NCBI RefSeq assembly: GCF_002197665.1
Contig: NZ_NBBJ01000003.1
Location: 124,001-188,000, forward strand
Direction: 5' to 3'
DNA: 64,000 bases
Source of the DNA: Sphingomonas mucosissima
GTDB taxonomy: Bacteria > Pseudomonadota > Alphaproteobacteria > Sphingomonadales > Sphingomonadaceae
The first letter of the stretch is position 1; every line of letters starts with the position of its first letter. Positions 54,021 to 59,791 of this stretch are shown here, piece by piece. The position numbers and the translations under genes are program-made. Under the pieces are notes generated by a model, which saw only the letters and a list, made by a program, of their open reading frames with translations, was not told the DNA's origin and made no database searches.

Positions 54021-54719
54021 TTATTCAACCTCTGCTTTCGTCGGTAGCCTGAAGAGATCGATGAAGCGTGCCGCCAGTTCCCGGTCCCCGGTGAACACCA
54101 ATTCGCCCGCGGCTTCGGCTTCGGTGATCGGCCATTTGCCATAGGTCAGGTTCGCCATGATCCGCGGCGTGGTGGCGAAATGCACGTCCACCGCCGCACT
54201 CCCGCGCACGATCGGCAAGTCGCCACACTCCAGCCGCGCAACGAACGATTCCGGCCCGAAGGTGAACCCCACCGCCATATCCGGCATCGCCCGCGCCGCC
54301 GCCACATCGATCATCGTGCGCAGCGACAGCATCATCGACGCTGCCGACAACGGCAGCATCGGATCATGATCCGGAGAGCGCGCCGCCCAGGCGCCAAGCG
54401 CCTTGATCGGCTCCTCCGCTTGGTATCCCCAGGCGGTCAGCCCATAAACCTGCACATTGGCAGGCGGCGGCAGCCGTTCGCGCTTCACGATATGCGCGCG
54501 CTCCAGCCCCTCGAGCCGCTGCGTCAGCACATTGGCGCTGATCCCGCCGAGTGACGCCTTCAACTCGCCAAAGCGGCGCGGCCCGAACATCAGCTCGCGC
54601 ACGATCAGCAAGGACCAGCGCTCCCCCACCAACTCCATCGCCAGCGCGGTGCCGCATGCATCGTCATACCACCGTTTTACCGCCCCACTTTCGCCGTTCG
54701 TCATTTTTTCTAACTTCAT
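54021..54719 (-). CDS. HxlR-family transcriptional regulator with C-terminal SCP2-like domain
   Basis: A 232-residue regulator. The N-terminal winged helix shows the HxlR signature CGTALAMELVGERWSLLIVRELMFGPRRFGELKASLGGIS and LTQRLEGLERAHIV. From about residue 130 a second domain (MPDMAVGFTFGPESFVARLE, ANLTYGKWPITEAEAAGELV) looks like a sterol-carrier-type lipid-binding domain. It is divergent from a run of detoxification-type genes and a palindrome lies in the shared spacer, so it probably controls them and itself. Confidence 0.88.
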   Translation of the reverse strand: MKLEKMTNGESGAVKRWYDDACGTALAMELVGERWSLLIVRELMFGPRRFGELKASLGGISANVLTQRLEGLERAHIVKRERLPPPANVQVYGLTAWGYQAEEPIKALGAWAARSPDHDPMLPLSAASMMLSLRTMIDVAAARAMPDMAVGFTFGPESFVARLECGDLPIVRGSAAVDVHFATTPRIMANLTYGKWPITEAEAAGELVFTGDRELAARFIDLFRLPTKAEVE

Positions 54720-54724
54720 GGTTG

Positions 54725-54740
54725 TTTTAGATAACTAAAT
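54725..54740. promoter_or_regulatory. Candidate HxlR operator
   Basis: Inverted repeat TTTAG-ATAA-CTAAA (54726-54739) in the 65-bp spacer between the divergent HxlR and VOC genes. It is the only AT-rich dyad there and lies 6 nt from the HxlR start codon. Operator function is inferred from position. Confidence 0.5.
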
Positions 54741-54784
54741 GCTCCAGAAATCTCAAGCATCGAGTCGCAAACGGAGCGTTTCGC

Positions 54785-55219
54785 ATGACCAAGATGATCT
54801 TCGTGAACCTGCCAGTCGCCAATGTCGCTGCCGCCACTGCCTTCTACGAGGCGCTGGGCTTCACCAAGAACCCGATGTTCTCCAATGAACAAGCGTCGTC
54901 GATGGTCTGGTCAGACGCGATCAGCGTGATGCTGCTCGACACCGCTTTCTACGCCACCTTCACCAACAAGACGCTGATCGACGCGCACACCACCAGCGGC
55001 GTGCTGCTCGCCCTTTCGTTCGACAGCCGGGCCGCCGTGGACGCGATCACCGAGGCGGCGATTGCCGCCGGCGGCCGCGAGACGCGCGACCGGCAGGATC
55101 TCGGCTTCATGTACGGCCGCGCCTTCGAGGATCTCGACGGCCACACCTGGGAGCCGGCGTTCATGGACATGGAAGCGGCCGCGGCAACCATGGATCCCAC
55201 CGCAGCAACCAGCGCCTGA
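54785..55219 (+). CDS. VOC family protein
   Basis: A 144-residue VOC protein starting MTKMIFVNLPVANVAAATAF. The fold markers are ATAFYEALGFTKNPMFS and GRAFEDLDGHTWEPAFMDM. This subgroup is often annotated as a glyoxalase/extradiol-type stress protein; the catalytic metal site is not certain. First gene of a run of nine codirectional genes with short spacers, divergent from the HxlR regulator. Confidence 0.88.
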   Translation: MTKMIFVNLPVANVAAATAFYEALGFTKNPMFSNEQASSMVWSDAISVMLLDTAFYATFTNKTLIDAHTTSGVLLALSFDSRAAVDAITEAAIAAGGRETRDRQDLGFMYGRAFEDLDGHTWEPAFMDMEAAAATMDPTAATSA

Positions 55220-55230
55220 GGAGACGGATC

Positions 55231-55461
55231 ATGTCGTTCCAGGCGTATCTCGACACGATCGAGAAGAAGACCGGCAAGACCCCGGCGGACCTGCGCGCGA
55301 TGGGCGCGGAAAAGGGTTGGACGCAGGGCGGGACGCTGGCCGCCGGCATTCGCCCGATGGCCATTGTCGAGGCGCTGAAGACCGATCTGGGGCTGGGCCA
55401 CGGCCATGCCATGGCCGTGGTGGCGCTGCTCAAAGGCCAGAAGAAAGAGGGCGACGCCTGA
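55231..55461 (+). CDS. DUF4287 domain protein
   Basis: A 76-residue protein starting MSFQAYLDTIEKKTGKTPAD, which is the DUF4287 signature, and ending GHGHAMAVVALLKGQKKEGDA. The function is unknown, but such genes often travel with VOC and AHSA1-like genes, as here. It begins 11 nt after the VOC stop. Confidence 0.88.
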   Translation: MSFQAYLDTIEKKTGKTPADLRAMGAEKGWTQGGTLAAGIRPMAIVEALKTDLGLGHGHAMAVVALLKGQKKEGDA

Positions 55462-55499
55462 CGATCCGGATGCTGGTCAGCCGCCGAAGGGAGACGATC

Positions 55500-55607
55500 A
55501 TGCCCCTTGATCATCGCGCCGTGCTTGGCGGCCTTTGCGCCTTTGCCGTGACCGCTCTGGCGATCCTGCTGATTGCAGCGGCGCAGGGTGCAGGGCCGTT
55601 CGCCTGA
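55500..55607 (+). CDS. Small single-span membrane protein (35 aa)
   Basis: Short ORF starting MPLDHRAVLGGLCAF with one transmembrane helix (AVTALAILLIAAAQGAG). A strong AAGGGAGACG ribosome site lies just upstream of the ATG at 55500. It sits between the DUF4287 and GST genes on the same strand with short spacers. No family is recognised. Confidence 0.6.
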   Translation: MPLDHRAVLGGLCAFAVTALAILLIAAAQGAGPFA

Positions 55608-55625
55608 AATGGAGAGGAAGATAGG

Positions 55626-56321
55626 ATGAACAAGCCGATCATCACCGCCTTCGATTGGGTGCCGCCGTTTGCCCGCGGACAGGTCCGGGACCTGCGCGTG
55701 CGCTGGGCGCTGGAAGAAGTCGGTCAGCCCTATGACGTGCTATACTTGGCTCAGGGGAGCCAGAGGCACCCGCCGCATCGCGCGCGCCAGCCGTTCGGCC
55801 AAGTGCCGACCTACCAGGAAGGCGACCTTACCCTGTTTGAGTCGGGTGCCATCGTGCTTCACATCGCAGATCGGCACGGCAAGCTGCTGCCGACCGACCC
55901 GGCGGCCCGCTCCCGCGCGATCGAATGGATGTTCGCCGCGCTGAACACGGTGGAGCCGCCGATAATGGATCACGCAATCGCCACCTTGTTCGAAGCAGAC
56001 GCGCCATGGTCAAAGCCGCGCCTCCCCTCCGTAAACGCGCGCATCGACGGGCGTTTGGGCGAGTTGTCCGATCGCCTTGGTGACGACACGTGGCTGGAAG
56101 GGGACACCTTCACCGCCGGCGACCTCCTGATGGTATCGGTGCTGCGCATCGTCGCTGGCGACGGCCACCTCGACGCTTACCCGAACCTTCAGGCCTATGT
56201 TGAGCGCGGCACCGCCCGCCCGGCCTTTGAACGTGCGCTGGCGGATCAGCTCGCGGGCTTCACGGGTCAGCCACCTGCCGAACTGCGCGCCTGGCTCGAA
56301 AAGATGGGGGAAGCGGCATGA
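55626..56321 (+). CDS. Glutathione S-transferase family protein
   Basis: A 231-residue GST. The N-terminal thioredoxin-like domain begins ITAFDWVPPFARGQVRDLRVRWALEEVG, and QPFGQVPTYQEGDLTLFESGAI is the glutathione-binding loop with the cis-Pro and Glu-Ser pair. The all-alpha domain follows with DTWLEGDTFTAGDLLMVSVL. It likely conjugates or reduces electrophiles. The stop overlaps the next gene by 4 nt (ATGA). Confidence 0.9.
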   Translation: MNKPIITAFDWVPPFARGQVRDLRVRWALEEVGQPYDVLYLAQGSQRHPPHRARQPFGQVPTYQEGDLTLFESGAIVLHIADRHGKLLPTDPAARSRAIEWMFAALNTVEPPIMDHAIATLFEADAPWSKPRLPSVNARIDGRLGELSDRLGDDTWLEGDTFTAGDLLMVSVLRIVAGDGHLDAYPNLQAYVERGTARPAFERALADQLAGFTGQPPAELRAWLEKMGEAA

Positions 56322-57031
56322 CCTACGTGGACGGGTTCGTGGTCGCGGTGCCGACCGCCAACAAGCAGAAATATGTCGATCATGCGGAGGGTGCGCTTGA
56401 TCTGTTCAAGGAGTTCGGCGCCGCTCGCATGGTCGAAGGCTGGGGTGACGACGTGCCGCGCGGCGAGGTGAACGACCTCTACCGCGCCGTGCAGGCCAAG
56501 GATGACGAGACCGTCCTGTTCAGCTGGGTGGAATATCCGAACAAGGCCACCCGCGACTCCGCCGGCCAGAAGATGATGAGCGATCCGCGCATGGAGAAGA
56601 TGGGCGACATGCCGTTCGACGGGAAGCGCATGATCTACGGCGGGTTCGAGCTGCTGCACGAAGCCGGCGCAGGCGGCGATTGCGGCTATATCGACGGCGT
56701 GATCCTGCCTGTGCCGCAGGACAGGAAAGAGGCTTATCGCGCCTTTTCACAAACCTCCGCCGCCGCATTCCTCGATCACGGCGCGACCCGTGTGGTCGAT
56801 ACCTGGGGCAATGACGTGCCCGACGGCAAGGTCACGGACTTCCGTCGCGCGGCAAAGGCCGAGGATGGCGACACAGTCGCGCTTGGCTGGATCGAGTGGC
56901 CGTCGAAGCAGGTCCGCGACGCCGCTTGGGAGCAGCTGATGAGCGACACGCGATTGTCGGGTGGAGGCGATCGCCCCTTCGACGGCAAGCGCATGATGTT
57001 CGGCGGGTTCGCGCCCGTGGTCGATCGCTGA
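56318..57031 (+). CDS. Tandem DUF1428 protein
   Basis: A 237-residue protein made of two DUF1428 (YbaA-like) domains: YVDGFVVAVPTANKQKYVDHA with PFDGKRMIYGGFE at 1-115, and YIDGVILPVPQDRKEAYRAF with PFDGKRMMFGGFAPV at 125-237. The family function is unknown, with an alpha-beta barrel fold. Single-domain proteins of about 120 residues are usual, so this is a duplicated, fused form. It overlaps the GST stop (ATGA). Confidence 0.9.
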   Translation: MTYVDGFVVAVPTANKQKYVDHAEGALDLFKEFGAARMVEGWGDDVPRGEVNDLYRAVQAKDDETVLFSWVEYPNKATRDSAGQKMMSDPRMEKMGDMPFDGKRMIYGGFELLHEAGAGGDCGYIDGVILPVPQDRKEAYRAFSQTSAAAFLDHGATRVVDTWGNDVPDGKVTDFRRAAKAEDGDTVALGWIEWPSKQVRDAAWEQLMSDTRLSGGGDRPFDGKRMMFGGFAPVVDR

Positions 57032-57047
57032 GCAAGGGAGAGCGACG

Positions 57048-57827
57048 ATGCGCAACACCCATGGCACGCCGATCTGGTACGAACTCCTGTCCACCGACCC
57101 CGACGCGTCCAAGACTTTTTACGAGGCCGTGATCGGCTGGACGGTAGGGCCGAAGCCTGAAGGCGAGATGGACTACCGGATGATCGAAGCGGCGTCTGGC
57201 GACGCGGTAGGCGGCCTGATGCGCCTCTCGCCGGAGATGGTGCAGGGCGGCGGCAGGCCGATGTGGTTGTTCTACGTCGGCGTCGATGATGTCGATGCAA
57301 CGGTCGCCCGGATCAATCAAGCCGGTGGCAGCGTCCAACTACCCGCCTTTGACATGCCGGGCGTTGGCCGAATGGCAATGGTCGCCGACCCTCAGGGCAA
57401 TCCGCTCTACGTCATGCGGGGTGAAAGCGACGAGCCAAGCCATTCGTGGGAGCGCACCGGCATGGGCAAGTGCAATTGGCACGAGCTTTCCACCACCGAT
57501 CAGGCCGGCAGCAATGGCTTTTATGCCGACGTGTTCGGCTGGACCTATCCCGACCGGATGACGATGCCCGGTGACATGGGCGACTATGTCTTTGCTGCCG
57601 TGAACGCAGAGGTCATTGGCGCCACGATGAAGGCCGGCAGCCAGCCGCCCGGCTGGCTCTTCTACTTCCGCGTCCCGAATATTGAAGAAGCCGCGGCGAA
57701 GGTGAAGGCCGGCGGTGGCATGGTCCACGCGGGCCCGATGGAGGTGCCCGGCGGCGATCGGGTGATCGTCGCCAGCGATCCTCACGGTGCCGCCTTCGGT
57801 GTCGTCGCGCCGGGAGCGCCAGCCTGA
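57048..57827 (+). CDS. Tandem VOC family protein
   Basis: A 259-residue protein with two VOC domains: TPIWYELLSTDPDASKTFYEAV with PMWLFYVGVDDVDATV, and KCNWHELSTTDQAGSNGFYADVFGWT (from the sequence GKCNWHELS) with GWLFYFRVPNIEEAAAKV. The two halves are clearly related. This tandem class is close to glyoxalases annotated with AHSA1/DUF1428 neighbours. It begins 16 nt after the DUF1428 stop; substrate unknown. Confidence 0.88.
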   Translation: MRNTHGTPIWYELLSTDPDASKTFYEAVIGWTVGPKPEGEMDYRMIEAASGDAVGGLMRLSPEMVQGGGRPMWLFYVGVDDVDATVARINQAGGSVQLPAFDMPGVGRMAMVADPQGNPLYVMRGESDEPSHSWERTGMGKCNWHELSTTDQAGSNGFYADVFGWTYPDRMTMPGDMGDYVFAAVNAEVIGATMKAGSQPPGWLFYFRVPNIEEAAAKVKAGGGMVHAGPMEVPGGDRVIVASDPHGAAFGVVAPGAPA

Positions 57828-57848
57828 CACCGTCTTGGTGGGAGAGAG

Positions 57849-58352
57849 ATGATGACTGAGGACAAGCTCGTGACCTGCGTCTGGTTTGATCGGGGGCAAG
57901 CACGCGAAGCCGCCAGCTTCTACGCCAGCGTATTCCCGGACAGCCATGTCGGCGCGGCACAGAATTCGCCGGCAGACAATCCATCCATGGCCGCCGGCGG
58001 GGAGCTGACCGTTATGTTCAGCGTGCTTGGCCGTCCTTTCCTCGGCCTCAATGGCGGACCCAACTTCACCCCCAATGAGGCGGTCAGCTTCATGGTGCTG
58101 ACCGATGATCAGGAGGAAACCGATCGTTACTGGAATGCGGTCGTCGGCAACGGCGGCGTGGAGAGCGACTGCGGCTGGTGCAAGGACCGGTGGGGCTTCT
58201 CCTGGCAGATCACACCCCGCGCGCTGATGGCGGCGCTGGCCGATCCGGACCCTGCCGCCGCCAGGCGTGCAATGGAGGCCATGATGACGATGAAGAAGAT
58301 CGACATCGCCGCGATCGAACGCGCTCGTGCCGGGGATTCGGCGGGTGCGTAA
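57849..58352 (+). CDS. VOC/PhnB-like protein
   Basis: A 167-residue protein of the PhnB/3-demethylubiquinone methyltransferase-like VOC group, despite that name not a methyltransferase. It has KLVTCVWFDRGQAREAASFY, LGLNGGPNFTPNEAVSFMV and DCGWCKDRWGFSWQITPRAL. It overlaps the start of the DHFR-like gene (GTG at 58345 inside its end) and follows the tandem VOC gene by 21 nt. Substrate unknown. Confidence 0.88.
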   Translation: MMTEDKLVTCVWFDRGQAREAASFYASVFPDSHVGAAQNSPADNPSMAAGGELTVMFSVLGRPFLGLNGGPNFTPNEAVSFMVLTDDQEETDRYWNAVVGNGGVESDCGWCKDRWGFSWQITPRALMAALADPDPAAARRAMEAMMTMKKIDIAAIERARAGDSAGA

Positions 58353-58959
58353 GGTCATCGGTGGGCTTTTCATGTCGGTCGACGGTGTGGTGCAGGCACC
58401 CGGTGGGCCGGACGAGGATCGGAGCGGCGGCTTCGCTTATGGCGGATGGGCGGCGGGATATTCGGACCAAACGACCGACGCCTTTATTGCCGAGCATATC
58501 GAGGGCGCTGAATATGACCTGCTGCTCGGCCGGCGCACGTACGATATCTTTGCCGATTACTGGCCGCGCCACCTCGTCAACCCGATCGGGGAACGCTTTG
58601 ACCGCATCACCAAATATGTCGTCACCTCTCGCCCCGACACGCTCGGCTGGCGCAGATCGCAGCCGCTGGTCGGCAATCCCGTGCGAACGGCGGCCGCCTT
58701 GCGCAACAGCGAAGGCCCGGACCTGCTGATCCAGGGCAGTAGCCAGCTTTACCCCGCGCTGTTCGGCGCAGGGCTGATCGACCGATTGTTCCTCACGGTC
58801 ATGCCCATCATCCTGGGCGCGGGCAAACGCGTGCTCACTGGTGATGCCGCGTCCGCCACTGGTCTGCGCCTCGTGGATCACCGCGTCAGCGACACGGGGG
58901 TGGTGATGAGCGTCTATGATCGCAGCGGCCCGGTGCGCACTGGCGATTTCACGAACTAA
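58345..58959 (+). CDS. Dihydrofolate reductase-like (RibD C-terminal) family protein
   Basis: A 204-residue protein beginning VRKVIGGLFMSVDGVVQAPGG, with the fold markers LLGRRTYDIFADYWP, ITKYVVTSRPDTLGW, LLIQGSSQLYPALF and DRLFLTVMPIILGAGKRV. This group resembles RibD reductase domains; true DHFR activity is not implied. The GTG at 58345 is preferred because it begins at the conserved residues and overlaps the previous stop; a GTG at 58327 is possible. Confidence 0.87.
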   Translation: MRKVIGGLFMSVDGVVQAPGGPDEDRSGGFAYGGWAAGYSDQTTDAFIAEHIEGAEYDLLLGRRTYDIFADYWPRHLVNPIGERFDRITKYVVTSRPDTLGWRRSQPLVGNPVRTAAALRNSEGPDLLIQGSSQLYPALFGAGLIDRLFLTVMPIILGAGKRVLTGDAASATGLRLVDHRVSDTGVVMSVYDRSGPVRTGDFTN

Positions 58960-58969
58960 GGAACAGAGG

Positions 58970-59413
58970 ATGCACGAGCTGAAGATCGAACGCCTGATCG
59001 ACGCGCCGATCGCAACCGTCTGGAGGGCGTGGACCGAGCATTTCGCCGAATGGTTCGTCCCGCGTCCATGGTCGGTCGAGGTGATCGAACAGGATCTGCG
59101 CGCCGGTGGCCGCAGCGCGATGGTGATGCGCGGGCCGAACGGCGAGGAACAACCCTCCGAGGGTGTTTATCTGGAGGTGGTGCCCGAGCGCCTGATCGTC
59201 AGTACGGACGCCTTTCTGCCGGGTTGGATGCCCGCGGGGCCGTTCATGGTCCGTATCGACAGTTTCGCGGACCAGGGTGGCAAGACGCGGTACACCGCGA
59301 TTGCCCGTCATTGGACAAAGGACGCCCGCGACCAGCATGAAGCCATGGGCTTCGAGGCCGGCTGGAACGCAGCAACCGACCAGCTCGAAGAGGTCGTCGC
59401 GCGTATCAAGTGA
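58970..59413 (+). CDS. SRPBCC/AHSA1-like protein
   Basis: A 147-residue START/Bet v1-fold protein of the Hsp90 ATPase activator (AHSA1)-like group: LKIERLIDAPIATVWRAWTEH, FVPRPWSVEVIEQDLRAGGR and MGFEAGWNAATDQLEEVV. It may bind a lipid or aromatic ligand. The ATG at 58970 follows GGAACAGAGG. It is the last gene of the nine-gene run; a terminator hairpin follows. Confidence 0.88.
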   Translation: MHELKIERLIDAPIATVWRAWTEHFAEWFVPRPWSVEVIEQDLRAGGRSAMVMRGPNGEEQPSEGVYLEVVPERLIVSTDAFLPGWMPAGPFMVRIDSFADQGGKTRYTAIARHWTKDARDQHEAMGFEAGWNAATDQLEEVVARIK

Positions 59414-59447: not shown

Positions 59448-59476
59448 CATTGCCCCGGCCAGTTGCCGGGGCAATG
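59448..59476. terminator. Bidirectional terminator hairpin
   Basis: Perfect 12-bp stem CATTGCCCCGGC (59448-59459) with GCCGGGGCAATG (59465-59476), loop CAGTT. On the plus strand it is followed by CTCATTTCTC. It separates the AHSA1-like gene from the convergent small gene. Confidence 0.7.
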
Positions 59477-59488
59477 CTCATTTCTCGA

Positions 59489-59791
59489 TCAGCCGACCCG
59501 CGTGCCGGTCAGCGGGAAACTGCCGAACGCACCAGCGCCGACGTTGCCGGTCACCGTGTCGCCGTCGATGGTGACATTCATGTCCAGCGTCATCGGCATC
59601 GGCACGGTCATCTGCTGCTTCCACGTCAGCGTGTTGCCGTTCACTTCGCCCGATACGTCGGACGCGCCCATGGCGCCGGAATTGGTGCCGGTGAACGTGT
59701 TGCCGTCGCTCTTCACTGTCAGCGTCGACTTCTGGTCGCCCAGCGGGGACTTCACAGTGACGTCGTAGGTACCGTCCACTCCAGCCATCAT
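59489..59791 (-). CDS. Hypothetical beta-rich protein (100 aa)
   Basis: Unrecognised protein of 100 residues, rich in Thr, Gly and Val, predicted beta-sheet throughout: YDVTVKSPLGDQKSTLTVKS, then NTFTGTNSGAMGASDVSG and TLTWKQQMTVPMPMTLD. Alternating strands with Gly/Asn turns suggest a lipocalin-like or FMN-split barrel-like fold. No signal peptide is seen. It starts at MMAGVDGTYD and ends 13 nt before a terminator. It lies 1 nt downstream of the M16 protease stop, so it may be cotranscribed. Confidence 0.65.
   Translation of the reverse strand: MMAGVDGTYDVTVKSPLGDQKSTLTVKSDGNTFTGTNSGAMGASDVSGEVNGNTLTWKQQMTVPMPMTLDMNVTIDGDTVTGNVGAGAFGSFPLTGTRVG

Follow-up and report, generated by a model that had tools for sequence, protein, structure and literature searches.

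A divergently encoded regulator and nine small genes in Sphingomonas mucosissima are best read, with a probability that we put at about 0.6, as a detoxification regulon under the control of an HxlR/DUF24 repressor with a single conserved cysteine and a fused SCP2-fold pocket. The genes lie in a 64,000-nucleotide stretch of contig NZ_NBBJ01000003.1 (positions 124,001 to 188,000; hereafter the window, with coordinates counted from its first nucleotide), where the regulator on the minus strand faces nine plus-strand genes, here called the cassette. The earlier note, made from the sequence of this stretch, had linked detoxification-type genes to a divergently encoded regulator whose extra domain is of lipid-pocket type, and this link is supported by a conserved neighbourhood, by a conserved pair of sequence boxes in the spacer, and by the absence of these boxes as a pair from all 20 sampled loci in which the regulator is missing. 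The regulon is conserved and of a known kind, with its SCP2-fold fusion, tandem box pair, exchangeable regulator and conserved CcrM-type site as new traits.

A conserved box pair follows the HxlR-type regulator

The regulator was searched for in 298 sampled genomes of the family and found in 134 of them, at 137 places plus the second pieces of two split genes. Besides the window, we took 60 regulator loci, mostly the best-scoring ones, and added the best 80 of 577 related loci, from named genomes, which gave 140 HxlR loci (some genomes being in both sets), or 141 including the window. Their unique spacers numbered 105 from Sphingomonadales and 29 from others. In all 140 loci, which come from two classes, at least one cassette family was located beside the regulator, on the opposite strand and in varying order.

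Alignment of the spacers revealed two boxes, GTYNYTTTTTNTAAC, with a period of 21 bp. In the window, box A (GTCATTTTTTCTAAC; 54700–54714, plus strand) is located within the first codons of the regulator, and box B (GTTGTTTTAGATAAC; 54721–54735, plus strand), placed at a distance of 21 bp, overlaps both the predicted −10 element of the regulator and a candidate −35 element of the operon. At the fixed 21-bp spacing, the pair scored at least 20 of 30 in 141/141 loci (median 25, mean 24.9), while the controls (1249 windows and 141 shuffled spacers) reached 18 of 30 at most; when the boxes were placed independently, they came to lie 21 bp apart in 88 of the 141 loci. Both boxes together occur nowhere else in the window genome, and a class-wide scan found the strict pair in 4 of 385 genomes and the reversed pair in none. 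Single boxes with one mismatch numbered 13 in the window genome versus 29 for the reversed control, and a wider regulon is therefore not claimed. A repeat search over the spacer returned no repeats. The dyad TTTAG-ATAA-CTAAA (54726–54739), which the earlier note had described as the only dyad of the spacer, was rejected as the operator because a TTTAG-N2-6-CTAAA dyad occurs in just one of the 141 homologous spacers, that of the window itself; nor is it the only signal there, as conservation falls on the box pair.

The same cassette was also found without this regulator. DUF1428 matches occur in 216 of the 298 genomes. Of at least 150 matches, the 150 listed comprised 101 in regulator-bearing genomes (91 within 10 kb of the regulator and 10 not) and 49 in 45 genomes without the regulator. 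Twenty DUF1428 loci were sampled from these 45 genomes; they contain the same cassette families, in four cases beside cobS. By strict pattern, the box pair was present in 0/20 of these regulator-less loci versus 105/140 HxlR loci, whereas another palindrome, ATACC-N8-GGTAT, was present in 10/20 versus 0/140. A related TetR is encoded in eight of the 20 loci, and all eight carry the palindrome. When six TetR candidates were submitted to Pfam, five showed TetR_N together with LmrA/YxaF-type C-terminal matches, and the L186 candidate had no Pfam match across the submitted open reading frame (ORF). Examples of such TetR genes with LmrA/YxaF-like C-terminal matches and the palindrome are located at L193:4488–5123, L195:7442–8134 and L180:2781–3467. 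The comparison hence shows, at the level of sequence, that in some other Sphingomonadaceae the same families are accompanied by a TetR-type regulator, which has a palindrome of its own. That the operator follows the regulator is the strongest in-silico evidence for assigning the boxes to the HxlR regulator and for regarding the cassette as a unit under regulation; from their conservation and this coupling, we consider the box pair the putative operator of the regulator. In addition, genes of the MPAB/rubber-oxygenase type were observed beside the cassette in two of these loci (L195:8155–9045 and L196:6352–7194).

The regulator combines an HxlR/DUF24 domain with an SCP2-like fold

The regulator gene (54021–54719, minus strand) encodes a protein of 232 amino acids, in which Pfam HxlR covers residues 30–115 (70 bits versus a cut-off of 20.8). 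PF02036 (SCP2) reached 14.8 bits, which is under the Pfam cut-off of 21.3. In an AlphaFold2 model (mean predicted local distance difference test score, pLDDT, 88.8), residues 109–228 match the alkylsulfatase PisA1 in its C-terminal part (VIA Z 14.1; root-mean-square deviation 1.8 over 110 residues), and Foldseek matched the C-terminal half to entries for UbiJ and sterol carrier protein 2. The predicted fold thus supports an SCP2-like C-terminal half, so that the extra domain proposed earlier holds by fold, though not by the Pfam cut-off. The closest fold matches of the N-terminal half were YodB, HypR and HxlR. Cys22 is present in 61/61 aligned regulators and aligns with Cys14 of HypR; among the same 61 proteins there was no second conserved cysteine, and Cys165 varies. 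The natural reading is a DUF24 sensor that works with one cysteine and has gained a domain of hydrophobic-pocket type. The closest named regulator among the matches listed, with 91% identity, is that of Sphingomonas sp. IC-11.

The cassette families are reshuffled between loci

Families were counted as present when a match with E ≤ 1e-6 was found anywhere in the fetched stretch, which indicates presence but does not prove co-transcription. Among the 140 HxlR loci, DUF1428 was found in 117, the PhnB-like VOC protein in 106, a relative of the first VOC protein (VOC1) in 100 (usually as the first gene where present), the two-domain VOC protein in 90, glutathione S-transferase (GST) in 67, AHSA1 in 56 and the RibD-like reductase in 34. 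Other families in these loci were pirin (38), alpha/beta hydrolase (21), DUF899 (20), DoxX (19), SDR (17) and MPAB-type oxygenase (11). The families are thus reshuffled beside the regulator. DUF4287 was found in four loci, and the 35-amino-acid peptide in one, whose copy differs by 9 synonymous and 13 nonsynonymous codons. A conserved gene for the peptide is unsupported, given its single locus and these codon differences. Of the nine-gene set proposed before, the linkage and the conserved neighbourhood therefore stand, while DUF4287 and the peptide are, as judged from these counts, peripheral members.

In two loci of Lysobacterales (Gammaproteobacteria; L110 and L113), cassette genes accompany the regulator and its box pair, with no GANTC site, which suggests transfer between classes. 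In another locus (L098, recorded as Microvirga sp. SRT01), the cobS gene beside the cassette is 92% identical to that of the window, and this record may be a misnamed sphingomonad.

Layout of the locus in the window

The ORF list and Pfam confirmed the regulator and the nine genes at the positions proposed for them, and Pfam agreed with the identities that had been claimed (VOC, DUF4287, GST, DUF1428, tandem VOC, PhnB-like, DHFR-like and AHSA1-like). All nine genes are on the plus strand. VOC1 (54785–55219), of the glyoxalase/bleomycin-resistance fold (Pfam Glyoxalase), is followed by the peripheral DUF4287 gene (55231–55461; Pfam) and by an ORF for a hydrophobic peptide of 35 amino acids (55500–55607; ORF list, no match in the Pfam search), which is weakly supported as a gene. 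Next come GST (55626–56321; Pfam GST), a two-domain DUF1428 protein related to E. coli YbaA (56318–57031; 2okq; two Pfam stretches), a two-domain VOC protein related to Rv0577 (57048–57827; 3oxh; two Pfam VOC stretches) and the PhnB-like VOC protein (57849–58352; PF06983, which we take to be VOC-like despite being named after a methyltransferase). The last two genes encode a RibD_C/DHFR-like reductase (58345–58959, with 58327 as a possible alternative start; Pfam RibD_C) and an AHSA1-type (SRPBCC) protein (58970–59413; Pfam AHSA1). The genes overlap or are separated by short gaps.

NCBIfam searches with the ten proteins of the locus gave no match reaching a cut-off; the two-domain VOC protein had a sub-cut-off match to a model of extradiol dioxygenase type (18.6 versus 450 bits). 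An anti-phage defence role was rejected, as PADLOC models matched 0/9 proteins. A gene for a CobS-type AAA protein is located upstream of the locus. Downstream, a stem-loop (59448–59476, plus strand) is a possible terminator for either strand, with a weak T run; the stem-loop search gave 6 sites versus 3.2 expected from shuffles. Past it lie a 100-amino-acid ORF (59489–59791), convergent with the operon and without a Pfam match, and an M16 peptidase gene, both on the other strand.

Predicted promoters

A promoter scan over the 105 Sphingomonadales and 29 other unique spacers gave the same best register in both groups, namely that of the regulator (TTG-17-TAT, minus strand), whose −10 element in the window falls in box B. 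In the window, the best-scoring register is the predicted regulator promoter TTGAGA-17-TATCTA (54728–54756, minus strand; −35 at 54751–54756 and −10 at 54728–54733). For the operon, TTGTTT-17-CAGAAA (54722–54750, plus strand) is a candidate promoter, a weak guess from the sequence and the column frequencies that lies outside the best registers. In 129/141 loci, a start codon occupies a constant position between box A and box B; the mRNA of the regulator is accordingly predicted to be leaderless, with box A read as codons. The consensus TTGAC-N17-19-TATNNT was dropped as a promoter yardstick, because in 21 genomes it was no commoner than its reversed pattern.

A CcrM-type site is conserved in Sphingomonadales

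Between the boxes and VOC1 lies CGAGTCG (54761–54767, plus strand), a GANTC (CcrM-type) site inside a YGAKTCG motif. In a region of 60 nt starting 10 nt past box B, GANTC was found in 106/112 Sphingomonadales loci; for background, it occurs at 0.0016 per base in the regulator coding sequence and in 19/63 cases in the 120 nt upstream of cobS. Among the unique Sphingomonadales spacers, 99/105 have GANTC, all as YGAKTCG in one orientation or the other, with 90 in the operon direction. An ortholog-matched control comprised 63 rows (90 nt upstream; the rows include repeated families and shadow ORFs). The share with GANTC was 0.85–0.91 for the regulator and 0.77–0.87 for VOC1, and one extended regulator ORF had 0.63; no other row exceeded 0.42. 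By order, among the best 80 of the 577 loci from named genomes, the site was present in Sphingomonadales (49/51), Caulobacterales (0/6), Hyphomicrobiales (1/11), Acetobacterales (1/4), Rhodobacterales (2/2), Lysobacterales (0/2) and unplaced loci (2/4). The sole Hyphomicrobiales locus with the site is L098, the possibly misnamed record. GANTC is strongly conserved in Sphingomonadales.

The window genome encodes GcrA (by Pfam) and a CcrM-type methyltransferase, both of which match their own NCBIfam models below the cut-offs. Of the 10 TetR-type palindromes, 9 have GANTC within 37 nt of the palindrome start; in L193, the site is inside the first TetR codons. By the predicted promoters of the window, the site would lie outside the −35 and −10 elements. 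Three related loci (L056, L058 and L132) have a separate promoter-like site, TTGAC...TATTGT/TAATGT, with GATTC or GAGTC just before the ATG, so that the GANTC feature may reach beyond the cassette. In a small promoter control, these three made up the 3/7 non-cassette sites with GANTC, numbers that are too few to judge.

Discussion

The comparison suggests the following model. Without inducer, the repressor would occupy box B and cover its own −10 element together with the likely −35 element of the operon; box A, two helical turns off on the same DNA face, would also be bound, and occupation of the two boxes is probably cooperative. The repressor would be released by a compound of lipophilic electrophile, quinone or phenolic type, through entry into the SCP2 pocket, modification of Cys22 or both, and the derepressed operon would supply VOC/PhnB-like, GST, DUF1428, RibD-like and AHSA1 proteins that may bind, reduce or conjugate such compounds. 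In Sphingomonadales, the CcrM-type site in the promoter region may add a methylation or GcrA input. The gene set, the box pair and its coupling to the regulator, the TetR alternative and the conservation of GANTC come from the comparison itself; repression, cooperativity, ligand class, enzyme roles and the methylation effect are what we infer here, and the detoxification function proposed by the earlier note is a plausible inference.

Known systems give this model its context. HypR (YybR), whose Cys14 aligns with Cys22, uses a two-cysteine disulfide switch, which would be unavailable to the present regulator since it has no second conserved cysteine. Similar small families occur in ECF41/ECF42 loci. 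CatE is a VOC-type enzyme, and CatD is of DoxX type, like the DoxX genes in 19/140 HxlR loci. ECF42 sigma factors with a YCII neighbour are described in one report (PMC8999054), whereas the regulators here would be one-component repressors and Pfam found neither a YCII nor a sigma-factor gene in the window cassette. In Bacillus, the MarR/DUF24 proteins CatR and YodB repress the catechol dioxygenase operon catDE, which has two CatR boxes; catechols are the signal for CatR, and YodB controls genes that detoxify quinones and diamide (PMC6212828). The present locus resembles the B. subtilis CatR/YodB–catDE system in its DUF24 fold, two boxes per regulator at the target promoter and small operon with a VOC-type protein. 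It differs in that the regulator is fused to an SCP2 fold, divergent and self-overlapping, and that the gene set is much larger, reshuffled and, in Sphingomonadales, accompanied by a conserved GANTC site. The fused SCP2-fold domain is a new trait within the known DUF24-type control of small detoxification genes. The TetR proteins of the alternative cassettes, none of which is in the window, resemble LmrA/QdoR (YxaF) by an adjacent palindrome and by their C-terminal Pfam matches, the link being the Pfam label alone. LmrA/QdoR are flavonoid repressors and QdoR responds to quercetin (PMC8481877); by analogy with the ligands of CatR/YodB and QdoR, phenolic or quinone-like inducers may be expected. 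Literature searches, with most subscription journals outside their coverage, returned nothing related on HxlR with SCP2 or "sterol carrier", only a Bacillus genome paper on HxlR, glyoxalase and Sphingomonas, and nothing on ECF42 with DGPF.

Several observations weigh against the repressor model. The operon promoter is weak and that of the regulator is better supported, so the regulator could also act as an activator. The box consensus was built from 61 of the 141 loci, which makes the score partly circular for those 61, and the other 80 include many close relatives and some of the same genomes. At spacings of 17–26 other than 21, between 41 and 97 of the 141 loci also reach a score of 20, with lower means (18.6–20.4), because the boxes are T-rich. 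DUF1428 is commoner than the regulator (216 versus 134 of the 298 genomes), and 10 of the 20 regulator-less loci have neither the box pair nor the TetR-type palindrome, so that neither kind of regulator need control the cassette genes. In one alternative, the neighbourhood is a loose collection of small stress genes with separate promoters, and the control exerted by the divergent regulator is confined to its own gene and VOC1. Gene order and content do vary between loci, and VOC1 is usually first where present (100/140); the short gaps and overlaps in the window, the shared strand across loci, the higher frequency of DUF1428 (117/140) and the persistence of the set next to a different regulator make such a collection quite unlikely. 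We hold the same clear doubt about a regulator that senses an endogenous lipophilic metabolite, such as an isoprenoid quinone or a fatty acid, through the SCP2 pocket alone, with the genes maintaining membrane quinones or lipids. The resemblance of the SCP2-fold half to UbiJ, of ubiquinone synthesis, and to alkyl-binding alkylsulfatase domains would suit such a sensor, as would the lack of a second conserved cysteine, but Cys22 is invariant (61/61), GST, VOC and reductases are families typical of detoxification, and no known quinone-synthesis gene is in the cassette.

The GANTC site raises the further question of whether methylation by CcrM, with GcrA or the polymerase as its reader, sets the expression of the cassette and/or the regulator through the cell cycle, a tentative idea that we consider somewhat unlikely. 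For it speak the frequency of the site (106/112 loci; YGAKTCG in 99/105 unique spacers, 90 operon-directed), regulator and VOC1 shares above all other rows of the ortholog control, its proximity to 9/10 TetR-type palindromes, and a likeness in sequence to GcrA/CcrM-controlled Caulobacter promoters: the genome has GcrA and CcrM-type genes, and PMC7987155 cites YGAKTCG as the motif found at methylated promoters that GcrA activates. The same paper, however, reports that the extended motif was not found in GcrA-activated Brevundimonas promoters. In Caulobacter, moreover, GANTC between −35 and −10 accompanies activation, and a site outside them accompanies a minimum at that time (PMC4287350), whereas the present site would be outside the predicted elements. 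Also unfavourable are its absence from 6/6 Caulobacterales and 10/11 Hyphomicrobiales loci, the L193 site within TetR codons, the 3/7 control sites with GANTC, all from related loci, and the sub-cut-off NCBIfam scores of CcrM and GcrA. A wider proposal couples electrophile defence in Sphingomonadales to the cell cycle: the methylation mark of CcrM, recognised by GcrA or by the polymerase, would act at the conserved YGAKTCG next to the cassette promoter under either repressor (HxlR-SCP2 or TetR), with replication gating or priming detoxification and the exchangeable repressor adding chemical sensing on top. We regard this as unlikely.

Overall, little-known families such as DUF1428, PhnB-like VOC and DUF4287 gain a gene set, a regulator and an operator that can be tested, and the TetR loci amount to a regulator swap made by nature around the same cassette. 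The fused SCP2 pocket is suggested as a sensor within the DUF24 family and, if the GANTC site works, chemical defence would be linked to the methylation cell cycle in Sphingomonadales.

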